Origin: a virus
Direction: 5' to 3' (one strand)
IMG/VR virus record: IMGVR_UViG_3300032753_000204
Location: 1 to 20,822 of that record
DNA length: 20,822 nt
Part shown: in pieces, positions 2,803-19,083 of the stretch
Position numbering within the stretch: position 1 is the first letter of the stretch
How the letters are laid out: every line of letters begins with the position of its first letter
The notes under the pieces: model-generated
Databases searched by the model: none
What the model was told of the DNA's origin: nothing
Seen by the model: the letters and a program-made list of their open reading frames with translations, nothing else
Program-made: the position numbers and the translations under genes

Positions 2803-2865
2803 TGTCATATTCTCCAGAAGTACACACGGCGAGAGTCTACCGCAGGTGTTCCTGGGATGCACTGC

Positions 2866-2881: not shown

Positions 2882-2946
2882 TAGTATTATTTACTAGCAT
2901 CTGCTGTTACTTCTTATCAATCCGAAGATGTTCTGGAGGAACTGTT

Positions 2947-3447
2947 ATGAGCAATCTTGCTCCTGTGATTAAGGATTTTGTCAACCAGTTGGTTGACCTT
3001 AAGAAGTCCGAAGCAATTTTGAAGAAGAATCGGAAAGACGTTGTCACCGATCTGAAGGAAGAAGGCTTCTCGGCTTCGATCATGATGAAGCTGATCAAAG
3101 ACGATCCTGAGAAGGTTCAATTGCAGTTGGAGGCTGTTAAACTCGCTGGAGCCGTTTTGGGTGTCCCCGTCTATGTTGAAGAAGCCGATCTCTCCGACGT
3201 GGACGTTTCCGAGGAGCGGAAGGATTTCGCTCTGGAGAAGTTCGGAGAGCTTAAGGACATCGACAATGAGCTTCAGGACCTTGGTGCCGAGATCAAGAAG
3301 GTTCTCGCGGAAGTCAAGAGCAACGGCTTGATCCCCAAAGTCGTCCTCCTCATCGCTGAGTTCCAAGTGGACGACAAGCGCAAGAAACAGTTCGATGAGC
3401 AGAGCATGGTCATCGGGGAATACCTAGCCGCTTACGCAAACGGCTGA
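2947..3447 (+). CDS. Tandem GapR-like (DUF2312) DNA-binding protein
   Basis: This 166-residue, highly charged protein has a C-terminal half (about 95-164) that matches the GapR/DUF2312 pattern: a coiled-coil helix, then 'VLAEVKSNGL' (GapR-type 'YAEAKGNGF'), a second helix with 'DDKRKK' and a final 'EYLAAYANG'. The N-terminal half (about 7-72) repeats the same order: 'VDLKKSEAILKKNRKDVVTD', 'LKEEGFSASIM', 'KDDPEKVQLQLEAVKLAG'. It therefore looks like an internal duplication joined by an acidic linker (73-90). Caulobacter GapR is an ~89-residue nucleoid protein that encircles overtwisted DNA. The gene is on the strand opposite to the surrounding operon, with TTCTGGAGG 7 nt before its ATG, and overlaps the J gene's 3' end by 24 nt. 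The family call is from remembered motifs. Confidence 0.78.
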   Translation: MSNLAPVIKDFVNQLVDLKKSEAILKKNRKDVVTDLKEEGFSASIMMKLIKDDPEKVQLQLEAVKLAGAVLGVPVYVEEADLSDVDVSEERKDFALEKFGELKDIDNELQDLGAEIKKVLAEVKSNGLIPKVVLLIAEFQVDDKRKKQFDEQSMVIGEYLAAYANG

Positions 3448-7787: not shown

Positions 7788-8097
7788 CTTTGGTCACCAC
7801 TCCAGAAGGAGAGACACGATAACATGATACTCCATCAAGTCCAACAATGTAGTGTGCCAATTCGGGCCACATCTTGAAGGTCTCATAGTCTTCTGCTGAG
7901 AGGTTACTAGTAAGGCCAGGATGTGTGTGGAATGATGCTTGAGTCTGGTCCTCATACTTCAACATGTCCTCTGCTCGAACGAGGAAACCCAGTTGAGGAT
8001 CATTTGCGATGTTCTCCAGCTCCACGACAGTCCCATCCTTCAAGATGAGTCCCACACGTTCAAGACCTTCCTGGGCGTAGAAATCAGTTAGATCCAT
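7777..8097 (-). CDS. JAMM/MPN-domain tail protein (N-domain counterpart of lambda K)
   Basis: This 106-residue protein carries a JAMM metalloprotease signature: Glu13 in 'LERVGLIL', then His57, His59, Ser67 and Asp70 in 'SFHTHPGLTSNLSAEDYE' (H-x-H-x7-S-x2-D). The family cleaves isopeptide or related bonds using zinc. In lambda gpK a JAMM domain precedes an NlpC/P60 domain in one polypeptide. Here it is a separate gene located downstream of the NlpC gene, overlapping it by 14 nt. All expected metal ligands are present, so it is probably active in tail tip maturation or cell wall entry. Confidence 0.9.
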   Translation of the reverse strand: MDLTDFYAQEGLERVGLILKDGTVVELENIANDPQLGFLVRAEDMLKYEDQTQASFHTHPGLTSNLSAEDYETFKMWPELAHYIVGLDGVSCYRVSPSGVVTKDEA

Positions 8098-14507: not shown

Positions 14508-15126
14508 TATGCAACCCCTCCGAGTACAGCATTGAATTGCATAGAGGCTTCAAGGAAGTTTCCAGGAGTCTTCTGCTCAGGAGCATCTCCACCACCAAGT
14601 GCGAGGCTAATTACCTTAGCCAACGTGCTGTAGTCTTGGACAAACTTGCAGTGCATGAAACCCACCTTCAACCTCATCTGTGCTTTGAGATCTTCGGAAC
14701 TGTTGGACCAAAATACTTCAGTCAACTTGCTGGGTACTACCTCGAAGGCCCAGCAGAGACCGTCCTCAAAGCTTAACCCGCTGACCCAGTCAACGAATAT
14801 GCCTCCAATTGCGACTGAATCCTTTTTGTCTGCGCTACTGCCTTGGTAGCGCGGCGCAAGAAAAAATCCAGGATGTGGGTCTGCGCCCAATCGATCAGGA
14901 CCTCGGACTGCTCCAAGGTCAGGCTCTCGAGGCTCGGGGCCTCACCAACAGGGTTCCCACGGGCGTCCCGTTTCATGAGAAGCTTCGTCAGAAGCTCATC
15001 ACGAACTTCACTGTTGAGTACCATCGTTGGGATGTTGTCCAGATCGGGTACGAGTCGCACCAATTCGGTGAGCAACCCGTAAGACATAAATATCTCGCTG
15101 TCGCCGAGCTTTAATGTGTCAGACAT
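14507..15126 (-). CDS. Tail assembly chaperone GT (-1 frameshift product)
   Basis: The T part is an open frame (127 codons from an internal ATG) in the -1 frame, with no ribosome binding site of its own. It overlaps the G gene and runs to the tape measure start. Slippage at T-TTT-TTC (14866-14860) would join the first 89 residues of G to 117 residues of T, beginning 'LAPRYQGSSADKKDS', giving about 206 residues. A second A-rich site at 14821-14829 could act instead. G/GT pairs are conserved in long-tailed phages. They coat the tape measure and guide tube polymerisation, and the ratio is set by frameshifting. The T part has 'VDWVSGLSFEDGLCWAFEVV', a tail-chaperone-like segment. Confidence 0.82.
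14773..15126 (-). CDS. Tail assembly chaperone G
   Basis: This 117-residue protein lies between the tail tube and tape measure genes. 'LGDSEIFMSYGLLTELVRLV' and 'LESLTLEQSEVLIDWAQTHI' are family-like helical regions of tail chaperones. The C-terminal 28 residues lie in the overlap with the T frame. The ribosome binding site is the extended CTTCTGGAG motif, 12 nt before the ATG. It begins directly at the end of the terminator U-run, so translation of G requires read-through of the terminator or a separate start. The 9-nt motif is perfectly complementary to the loop of the hairpin upstream. Confidence 0.87.
   Translation of the reverse strand: MSDTLKLGDSEIFMSYGLLTELVRLVPDLDNIPTMVLNSEVRDELLTKLLMKRDARGNPVGEAPSLESLTLEQSEVLIDWAQTHILDFFLRRATKAVAQTKRIQSQLEAYSLTGSAG
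14821..14829 (-). other. Second possible slippery site (ACA AAA AGG)
   Basis: On the minus strand the G frame reads ACA-AAA-AGG here. A -1 slip of the AAA tRNA keeps full pairing (AAA to AAA) and continues as AAG GAT in the open T frame. It is weaker than the T-TTT-TTC site because the flanking codon re-pairs imperfectly. It is closer to the G stop, as in many G/GT pairs. Confidence 0.35.
14860..14866 (-). other. Slippery heptamer T-TTT-TTC for -1 frameshift (G to GT)
   Basis: On the minus strand, codons 87-89 of G read GAT-TTT-TTC, so the heptamer T TTT TTC is in the exact X-XXY-YYZ phase for -1 slippage. Both tRNAs can re-pair (TTT, TTT) and the -1 frame is open to the tape measure start. 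The location in the G-T overlap agrees with the family rule. Confidence 0.72.
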
Positions 15127-15149
15127 TTACTAGCAAATCTCCAGAAGAA

Positions 15150-15182
15150 AAACCACGATGGGAGTGTAACCCATCGTGGTTT
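15150..15182 (-). terminator. Rho-independent terminator after the tail tube gene
   Basis: There is a perfect 13-bp stem (15150-15162 with 15170-15182: AAACCACGATGGG / CCCATCGTGGTTT) and a 7-nt loop. On the minus transcript it is followed by a T-rich tract, TTTTTCTTCT counting the last three stem bases. It separates abundant head and tube products from the chaperone and tape measure genes and would reduce, not abolish, downstream transcription. It lies directly before the G ribosome binding site. Confidence 0.88.
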
Positions 15183-15199
15183 CTAAGACAAGGTGTGTG

Positions 15200-15218
15200 G
15201 CTTCTGGAGGAATGCCTT
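15200..15218 (+). repeat. 19-bp inverted copy of the ribosome binding region at 19021-19039
   Basis: The plus-strand sequence GCTTCTGGAGGAATGCCTT is identical to the minus-strand sequence at 19039-19021. Two 19-mers matching by chance in a window of this size are unlikely (rough expectation well below 0.01). The match ends sharply on both sides. It overlaps the loop of the hairpin at 15184-15224. Confidence 0.9.
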
Positions 15219-15228
15219 GTCTTAACTC

Positions 15229-16008
15229 TTAACCCATCACCAATTCGGCTTGACGGGTAACGAAGTTGCTGTAATTCGGGTCCGTCGTGACCAGATTGTA
15301 GATCGTGGCTTCGAAGGGCAGATTCGCATAAGCCTTCGTGTCCGCCTTGAGGGTGAAACCCTTCGTGATGCGAACCTTCGGCAGGTTGACACGAATCAAG
15401 GTGCCGTCCGAGAGGGTGCTGACGGCGGCAGCCGACAAGTAAGGCTGAGCAGCCGTGGAGGCCAAGTCCAAGTTGGTGGCCAAACGGACGGTCGCGCCCG
15501 ACTGGAGGTTGTCGGGGATGCCGAACGTCAGGGTCAAGGTGTTGGTTGCGACCGAGGCGATCTTGTCAACGAAGATCTCTTCATTGGTCGCGCCCTGGAC
15601 GATGATCCAGCTATTGGCGACGAGTCCCGTCGCCGACACGACAGCCAGAGTCATATCCGGGGAGGCATATGTACCTGTGACAGCTCCCGAGGTCGTCGTG
15701 ACAACGGGAGAGCTGGTCAGCGCCGCGCCGTTCATGCCGAGGCCGAAGGCGATATTCTTGGCGGTGTATTCGAACACTTCCCAAGAGGCCTTCAACTGCG
15801 ACTTGTTCATGGTGCTGGACACGATCTGGTTCTGAACGCCCTGCGTCAGTTCCACGTAACCGACATCATAGGACAGGCTGAAGTTCTTCACCAAGCCAAG
15901 TAAATGAGTCGCGGGATTCAGTTTGTAGAGGTCGGCTTGGGGGCCAAGATAGATGGACGCTTCCGACAGGAAGAACGAACCAGTTTTTGCACTACCGAAA
16001 TCAGCCAT
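15229..16008 (-). CDS. Major tail protein (tail tube)
   Basis: This 259-residue protein lies between the tail terminator-like gene and the tail chaperones, the place of the tube subunit. The N-terminal part ('TGSFFLSEASIYLG', 'KNFSLSYDVGYVELTQGVQN') and the C-terminal part ('VRITKGFTLKADTKAYANLP', 'FEATIYNLVT') form the beta-sandwich core expected of tube proteins. Residues ~105-185 look like an inserted beta domain ('MTLAVVSATGLVANSWIIVQ', 'EEIFVDKI', 'LTLTFGIPDN') that may sit on the outside of the tube. CGGAG lies 7 nt before the ATG. The gene has its own upstream intergenic region, and a terminator follows, in keeping with high expression. Confidence 0.82.
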   Translation of the reverse strand: MADFGSAKTGSFFLSEASIYLGPQADLYKLNPATHLLGLVKNFSLSYDVGYVELTQGVQNQIVSSTMNKSQLKASWEVFEYTAKNIAFGLGMNGAALTSSPVVTTTSGAVTGTYASPDMTLAVVSATGLVANSWIIVQGATNEEIFVDKIASVATNTLTLTFGIPDNLQSGATVRLATNLDLASTAAQPYLSAAAVSTLSDGTLIRVNLPKVRITKGFTLKADTKAYANLPFEATIYNLVTTDPNYSNFVTRQAELVMG

Positions 16009-16100: not shown

Positions 16101-16289
16101 ATGGACCTCAGAAGCAAGTCTCTTTCACTCCCCAATGATTTGATCAAGCTGATCGAATACAGGGCAGCACAGAACAGCCGCTCCTTTAGTGGTGAGGTTG
16201 TTCACCTCCTTCGCATGATCTTAAGGATCAATAGAGACGTGGAGGTCGAGCAGTTTAAAGTGCTGGTTTCCGGTCCCCGTGGAGATTGA
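16101..16289 (+). CDS. Arc-like ribbon-helix-helix DNA-binding protein
   Basis: This 62-residue protein matches Arc-type repressors. The strand 'SKSLSLP' is followed by helix 1 'NDLIKLIEYRAAQNSR', the turn 'SFSGEV' and helix 2 'VVHLLRMILRI' (compare the Arc pattern 'RLPxELxxxLxxxAxxxGRSxxxEIVxxL'). Such proteins dimerise and place the beta ribbon in the DNA major groove to repress transcription. The gene runs on the plus strand, against the structural operon. Its 3' end overlaps the tail terminator-like gene by 35 nt, and its upstream region is shared with the tail tube gene. It may regulate itself and the late genes, but the targets are inferred. Confidence 0.8.
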   Translation: MDLRSKSLSLPNDLIKLIEYRAAQNSRSFSGEVVHLLRMILRINRDVEVEQFKVLVSGPRGD

Positions 16290-18694: not shown

Positions 18695-19018
18695 TTAACG
18701 AGCCTTGCTCTTGCGAACCTGAGCTTCAGTGGGTTCATCCTCGGCGCGAGGAACTACCGGCTGGGTTGAGAAAGCCGATGCGAAGCTCGCAATCGCCAAT
18801 TCCCGATCACCCTCGGACTCGCCCAGGTATTTGACGAACTCAGCGTCCGTGGCCTCGTCGTTCAGATCCGCAATCAAGATACGAAGCTGAGAGTTCCCCA
18901 GGTGCCGTTGGAGCGAATGGTTCATCACCACCACAGCAGGGCGAAAGGCCGGGAGGTGTTGCAGTTTTTCATCCTGCAATTGGAAGTCTCCAGTAGTTTC
19001 AGCCAGAACTTTTGGCAT
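18695..19018 (-). CDS. Small protein of unknown function following the capsid gene
   Basis: This 107-residue protein has no family I recognise. The centre has strand-helix alternation ('FRPAVVVMNHSLQRHLGNSQ', 'LRILIADLNDEATDAEFVKY', 'ELAIASFASAF'), and the last ~20 residues are charged and probably disordered ('PRAEDEPTEAQVRKSKAR'). Its place between the capsid and adaptor genes points to a head or connector role. The ribosome binding site is the extended motif CTTCTGGAGG with a 10-nt spacer. The 19 nt ending 2 nt before the ATG are perfectly complementary to the hairpin loop element at 15194-15218, so its translation may be controlled. Confidence 0.75.
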   Translation of the reverse strand: MPKVLAETTGDFQLQDEKLQHLPAFRPAVVVMNHSLQRHLGNSQLRILIADLNDEATDAEFVKYLGESEGDRELAIASFASAFSTQPVVPRAEDEPTEAQVRKSKAR

Positions 19019-19020
19019 TT

Positions 19021-19039
19021 AAGGCATTCCTCCAGAAGC
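19021..19039 (-). repeat. 19-nt ribosome binding region shared (inverted) with 15200-15218
   Basis: The minus strand reads GCTTCTGGAGGAATGCCTT and ends 2 nt before the ATG of the 107-aa gene. It contains GGAGG (19029-19033). The identical plus-strand copy lies about 3.8 kb away in the 3' region of the tail tube gene. Confidence 0.9.
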
Positions 19040-19042
19040 TCA

Positions 19043-19069
19043 AGTCGAGGCAGCTTCTCTGCCTCGACT
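19043..19069 (-). terminator. Hairpin after the capsid gene (attenuator or mRNA-stabilising stem)
   Basis: There is a perfect 11-bp stem (19043-19053 with 19059-19069, AGTCGAGGCAG / CTGCCTCGACT) with a 5-nt loop. On the minus strand the loop is AGAAG and the stem is followed by TGAGCTTCTGG, not a U-run, so it is not a full Rho-independent terminator. It probably protects the capsid mRNA 3' end or reduces read-through. The AGAAG loop is complementary to the CTTCT just downstream, next to the ribosome binding site of the following gene. Confidence 0.65.
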
Positions 19070-19083
19070 CGATCACCTTATAA

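Follow-up and report, generated by a model that had tools for sequence, protein, structure and literature searches.

What does a hairpin with an anti-Shine-Dalgarno (anti-SD) loop do when it stands beside a terminator at the end of a phage structural gene? Phages need hundreds of copies of their capsid and tube proteins but few of the neck proteins and chaperones, and little is known of RNA control of this ratio at the level of the operon. The stretch of DNA analysed here, referred to as the window, corresponds to a 20,822-base record in IMG/VR; its kin are JWF, 2-1, Lumi, Seuss and similar siphophages. On its minus strand, in the gap between the tail-tube and tail-chaperone genes, lies an element composed of a hairpin (H1) and a terminator (T2), with the following parts and neighbours:

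15229..16008 (-): tail-tube gene, 259 aa, PHROG 28493, tblastn matches to JWF/Seuss-type siphophages; 5′ of the element
15184-15224 (-): H1 as a whole, 10 bp with a 21-nt loop containing CCUCC
15215..15224 (-): 5′ arm of H1, UAAGACAAGG; 10 pairs, 100% paired in four phages
15194..15214 (-): anti-SD loop of H1, CAUUCCUCCAGAAGCCACACA
15184..15193 (-): 3′ arm of H1, CCUUGUCUUA
15200..15218 (-): 19-nt antisense stretch, AAGGCAUUCCUCCAGAAGC, the complement of the ribosome binding site (RBS) of a 107-aa gene
15150..15182 (-): T2, 13 bp with the 7-nt loop UUACACU, then UUCUU
14773..15126 (-): gene G, tail tape-measure chaperone, PHROG 37198; candidate cis target

PHROG 28493 is a family without an assigned function, and we take its member here to be the tube protein from its place ahead of the chaperone and tape-measure genes. 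A 62-aa ORF lies on the opposite strand between a 144-aa gene and the tube gene (16101-16289, +), and a small reverse gene occupies the matching place in JWF, where it is Arc-like, and in 2-1. The chaperone gene includes a slippery T TTT TTC (14866-14860, -) with the -1 frame open beyond it (14890-14507, -), likely a -1 frameshift of the G/GT type; in the relative Seuss the chaperone gene is annotated with ribosomal slippage.

Read along the minus strand, the end of the tube gene is followed by UAAGACAAGG CAUUCCUCCAGAAGCCACACA CCUUGUCUUA, a single G, the terminator (AAACCACGAUGGG UUACACU CCCAUCGUGGUUU) and then UUCUUCUGGAG, in which GGAG probably serves as the SD for the chaperone gene. The coordinates first proposed for a 10-bp hairpin and a 13-bp terminator with a U-rich tail are right, the T2 arm beginning 1 nt after H1. 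With its G+C-rich stem, U-rich arm end and the UUCUU that follows, T2 has the make-up of an intrinsic terminator; it is absent from the list produced by a simple consensus terminator scan. Seven of its 13 pairs are changed on both sides across four phages, and a terminator hairpin occurs 3′ of the tube gene in nearly all inspected relatives. The pairs of H1 are 100% kept in four phages, eight of the ten being invariant, and because they hardly vary their conservation says little alone. The stem sequence and the CCACAC motif of the loop are conserved beyond the needs of a hairpin alone; this motif, in the 3′ half of the loop (15194-15200, -), does not vary among the four aligned phages and takes little part in pairing. 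The whole element folds much better than shuffles (z -6.7), mostly through the contribution of T2. The element and its conservation are established. It is present as a single copy in the window and gave no family at the gathering threshold of Rfam 15. The minus strand just upstream of it showed no sigma-70-like promoter, in keeping with an RNA that derives from an mRNA; judged by sequence only, the element lies in the 3′ UTR of an mRNA whose intrinsic terminator it shares. The possibility that the repeat serves as an RBS on the plus strand was rejected: GGAGG-A-ATG leaves too short a spacing, and L009, one of the relatives described below, lacks the ATG.

The original prediction held that the loop is complementary to the RBSs of at least five genes in the window, and all the claimed complements were found (19 nt for the 107-aa gene, 11 nt for a GapR-like gene and 9 nt each for G, I and a 121-aa gene):

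18695..19018 (-): 107-aa gene, immediately 3′ of the major capsid gene; kept in relatives
19021..19039 (-): candidate main target, RBS of the 107-aa gene, GCUUCUGGAGGAAUGCCUU; perfect complement
19042..19070 (-), limits approximate: 12-bp hairpin without a U-run, in the interval that separates the capsid gene from the target RBS
2931..2941 (+, opposite strand): RBS of the GapR-like gene (2947-3447), UUCUGGAGGAA
15139..15147 (-): SD region of the chaperone gene (G), CUUCUGGAG; paired with the H1 loop in the read-through fold
2812..2820 (-): RBS of the 121-aa gene (2802-2437), CUUCUGGAG; first gene of an endolysin-containing block
7800..7808 (-): CUUCUGGAG ahead of gene I (195 aa, 7787-7200); doubtful target

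The 107-aa gene, called the post-capsid gene below, is without a Pfam or PHROG match. It follows the gene of the major capsid protein (PHROG 3922 by family match), and its position suggests that it is the first of a neck/connector block. The strong hairpin ahead of its RBS lacks a U-run; a hairpin is present 3′ of the capsid gene in nearly all inspected relatives, in some of them with a U-run.

A 9-nt complement of an SD is cheap in itself. In the window TTCTGGAG occurs six times against 1.35 expected, and six copies were reached by one of 100 shuffles. The weight rests on the 19-nt match (E = 8e-5 within the window) and on its covariation in relatives. An inverted repeat arising by luck might still account for this match alone, so relatives were gathered: 80 loci through a capsid alignment, 29 through a tube alignment and 5 in contigs of bacterial genomes. 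Only five different phages were found to have H1 with a CUCCAG loop, the window, L009 (whose sequence is identical in L010 and L107), L015, L131 and L273, and in each of these relatives it has the same place as in the window. Pattern scans of viral contigs with the loop or RBS motif gave alone no confirmed new clade member, though the L131 contig was already present in the first of them; the chaperone alignment, used as a query, brought no further close relative, and scans by the tube protein alone gave no matches.

Comparison of each loop with the post-capsid RBS of the same phage gives 19 nt in the window (AAGGCAUUCCUCCAGAAGC / GCUUCUGGAGGAAUGCCUU), 15 nt in L009 (GGCGCUCCUCCAGAG / CUCUGGAGGAGCGCC), 20 nt in L131 (CAGGGCGCUCCUCCAGAAGC / GCUUCUGGAGGAGCGCCCUG), and in L015 10 contiguous nucleotides, or 14 pairs with one bulged A (GGCGUUCUCCAGAG / CUCUGGAGAAACGCC). 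For L131 the loop served to predict the RBS motif in advance, and the RBS, once looked up, matched. Loop and RBS have changed in pairs, GGCAUU/AAUGCC in the window corresponding to GGCGCU/AGCGCC in L009 and L131, and L015 having a paired change of its own (GGCGUUCUCC/GGAGAAACGCC). The post-capsid RBS is GGAGGAGCGCC in L009, L131, L016 and L273; that of the window deviates (GGAGGAAUGCC) and its loop likewise, as do the RBS of L015 (GGAGAAACGCC) and its loop. The capsid tree makes the window sister to L009, L015, L273 and L016 and puts L131 far outside, on a long branch that leaves its place unsure; this fits branch-specific double changes in loop and RBS. The covariation anticipated in related phages is therefore present: the anti-SD loop beside a terminator is kept in five phages and pairs with the RBS of the same gene, with compensatory changes, in four. 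The complementarities and the compensatory changes are established, and few independent events can be counted, as the element occurs in only five genomes and the post-capsid RBS, too, is conserved.

In cofolding, each post-capsid RBS of the four phages was bound best by the RNA of its own phage (-19.3, -20.2, -9.1 and -25.1 kcal/mol, against -10.7, -16.1, -5.6 or weaker, and -15.5 kcal/mol for the best foreign RNA in the same order, the last being L131). Among 39 other, more distant relatives, the longest complement between UTR and post-capsid RBS was 2-7 nt and no post-capsid pairing was detected (p 0.37). The comparative evidence places the predicted pairing of loop and post-capsid RBS above chance. 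A generic complement to the SD was rejected as the whole explanation for this gene and remains a caution for the 9-11-nt targets.

The counter-case is L273, a provirus-like region in a contig of a Telmatospirillum MAG. A tRNA-Pro and a tRNA-Arg near one end of the contig (L282 18149-18225 and 18663-18739) suggest an integrated provirus in an alphaproteobacterium. L273 keeps the hairpin, with the loop AACCCUCCAGAUACC, and its match to the post-capsid RBS is only 8 nt. Its longest RBS match, of 10 nt, is to the orthologue of the 121-aa gene (UCUGGAGGGU), and is weak because two more such 10-nt matches occur elsewhere in the contig. With L273 included, the total over own partners ranks third of 120 permutations. 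Inverted-repeat copying, by template switching or gene conversion, could keep loop and RBS alike without any function; it would likewise change both sides together, and L273 shows that both can come apart. We consider it very improbable, since the likeness goes no further than the complementary stretch and is located within a conserved hairpin loop, and the 5′ flank change recurs in several unlinked RBSs.

This flank change is seen in the other candidate targets. Five of the 24 candidate GGAG-SD starts in the window have TTCT before the GGAG (those of the 107-aa, chaperone, GapR-like and 121-aa genes and of I) and none has CTCT; in the genome of L009, the one relative where RBSs could be compared, all five orthologues have CTCT and none TTCT, and the loop is changed at the same place. 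Several RBSs per genome thus share a motif that differs between genomes in step, as would be expected if an RNA-binding regulator of phage or host recognised UUCUGGAG and the complement in the loop were secondary. A protein site would not require complements that are perfect over 19-20 nt and show compensatory changes beyond the motif, and we regard this account as most improbable. The five genes listed by the original prediction are of uneven standing: the post-capsid gene is a strong candidate, the chaperone gene is best explained in cis, the GapR-like and 121-aa genes are suggestive (two genomes), and gene I, the least convincing, may be a coincidence, its site sitting within the end of the upstream coding sequence. 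The GapR-like protein belongs to the DNA-binding family PF10073; its gene is divergent from the 121-aa gene, and homologues are found in the L009 contig, L133 and L273. The block headed by the 121-aa gene includes a phage lysozyme (PF00959). These two genes may be secondary targets, weaker, like gene I, than the post-capsid gene; cofolding gives only weak trans binding for the 9-11-nt complements, in a model that does not include kissing to an intact hairpin loop.

The chaperone SD lies just beyond T2. With flanks included, the minimum-energy fold of the read-through RNA joins the loop to this SD across T2 in the window, L009, L015 and L131; for a different L009 stretch the hairpin wins, so that in L009 the two states are close in energy. 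The terminated RNA stops short of the chaperone SD and, in its predicted fold, retains H1. The structure originally proposed is confirmed, with a correction for the read-through transcript, in which the loop is predicted to be paired with the SD of the next gene and not exposed. The folds suggest that the terminated RNA might act in trans and the read-through RNA silence the chaperone gene in cis. A switch of this type (anti-SD, terminator, SD) throughout the family, for which JWF, 2-1 and others had looked suggestive, was rejected, own versus permuted pairing being non-significant outside the clade (p 0.07).

Could the loop serve solely to sequester the chaperone SD across T2 on read-through mRNA, its likeness to the post-capsid RBS reflecting an SD motif shared in the phage? 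The folds of the four phages agree with this, as do their loop/chaperone SD complements of 9-10 nt. It leaves unexplained a post-capsid complementarity of 14-20 nt with changes outside the SD core (AUGCC/GCGCC) that are absent from the chaperone SD; moreover, the L273 loop matches its chaperone SD over only 6 nt, and the 39 other relatives give the non-significant result just cited. We think this purely cis role unlikely. Pairing might also be intramolecular and long-range, the loop and the post-capsid RBS, ~3.8 kb apart, meeting within one polycistronic late mRNA with no small RNA acting in trans. The late genes are all on one strand and could share a transcript, on which loop and post-capsid RBS presumably both lie, and the comparative evidence is equal for cis and trans pairing; the motif-bearing GapR-like gene is encoded on the opposite strand and could be affected only in trans. 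We judge this arrangement distinctly unlikely.

The reading we favour, with moderate confidence, is that a 3′UTR-derived antisense RNA represses the post-capsid gene as well as, where transcription reads through, the chaperone gene. H1 and T2 would form an antisense module within the 3′ UTR of the tail-tube mRNA. After a stop at T2, the mRNA tail, or a ~80-nt piece cut from it, would display the CCUCC loop, which would pair over 14-20 nt with the SD/start region of the post-capsid gene and block its translation; output of the neck-gene block would fall in relation to that of capsid and tube. On read-through past T2, the same loop would pair with the chaperone SD just downstream and hold the chaperone down in cis. 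Pairing in the cell, repression and a separate small RNA are what we infer from these comparisons. The phage thus probably turns down selected genes through its own structural mRNA. A wider role for the tube-mRNA tail, as a phage-wide regulator of stoichiometry or timing whose one loop co-evolves with several RBSs, is conceivable but doubtful; the post-capsid neck block, the chaperone, the head of the endolysin block and the GapR-like gene would then be lowered together as tube mRNA accumulates. If true, silencing of other structural genes by the tail of a structural mRNA would be a simple way of setting stoichiometry, and the predicted pairing is specific enough for a direct test with compensatory mutations; the papers searched contained no account of it.

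The CcsR or cuckoo RNAs of alphaproteobacteria carry anti-SD loop motifs. They are sRNAs excised from the 3′ portion of an mRNA ending in an intrinsic terminator (PMC10253847, citing PMC4615179). Unlike the present element, which is a single copy after a tail-tube gene (PHROG 28493) and has no Rfam match, they follow a DUF1127 gene and occur in several copies. DicF is a prophage 3′UTR-derived sRNA that arises by Rho-independent termination inside an operon, with genes downstream (PMC9438474); it targets host mRNAs such as ftsZ, whereas the likely targets here are phage structural genes. Within a limited search of the open-access literature, a keyword search of a 2025 review of phage sRNAs (PMC12197685) showed no comparable structural-gene 3′UTR RNA. 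The same review describes c4, an antisense RNA of phages P1 and P7 that uses complementary segments, likely in loops, to block the RBS region on a phage mRNA. The loop described here is likewise complementary to the RBS of a phage gene, but c4 controls an antirepressor gene, while the candidate target here is a block of structural genes and the element matches no Rfam family. OppZ and CarZ of Vibrio cholerae are autoregulatory sRNAs derived from 3′ UTRs (PMC7398697), in which, as predicted here from sequence, an RNA from the 3′ end of an mRNA pairs with its own transcript and inhibits translation. OppZ binds the oppA-oppB intergenic region, sparing oppA (PMC9438474), and the post-capsid RBS directly after the capsid gene parallels this site. 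In contrast to both, the element is intergenic within a phage late operon and holds its antisense sequence in a hairpin loop, and the next gene may be a cis target. By analogy, it would work most like OppZ and CarZ and, among phage RNAs, most like c4.
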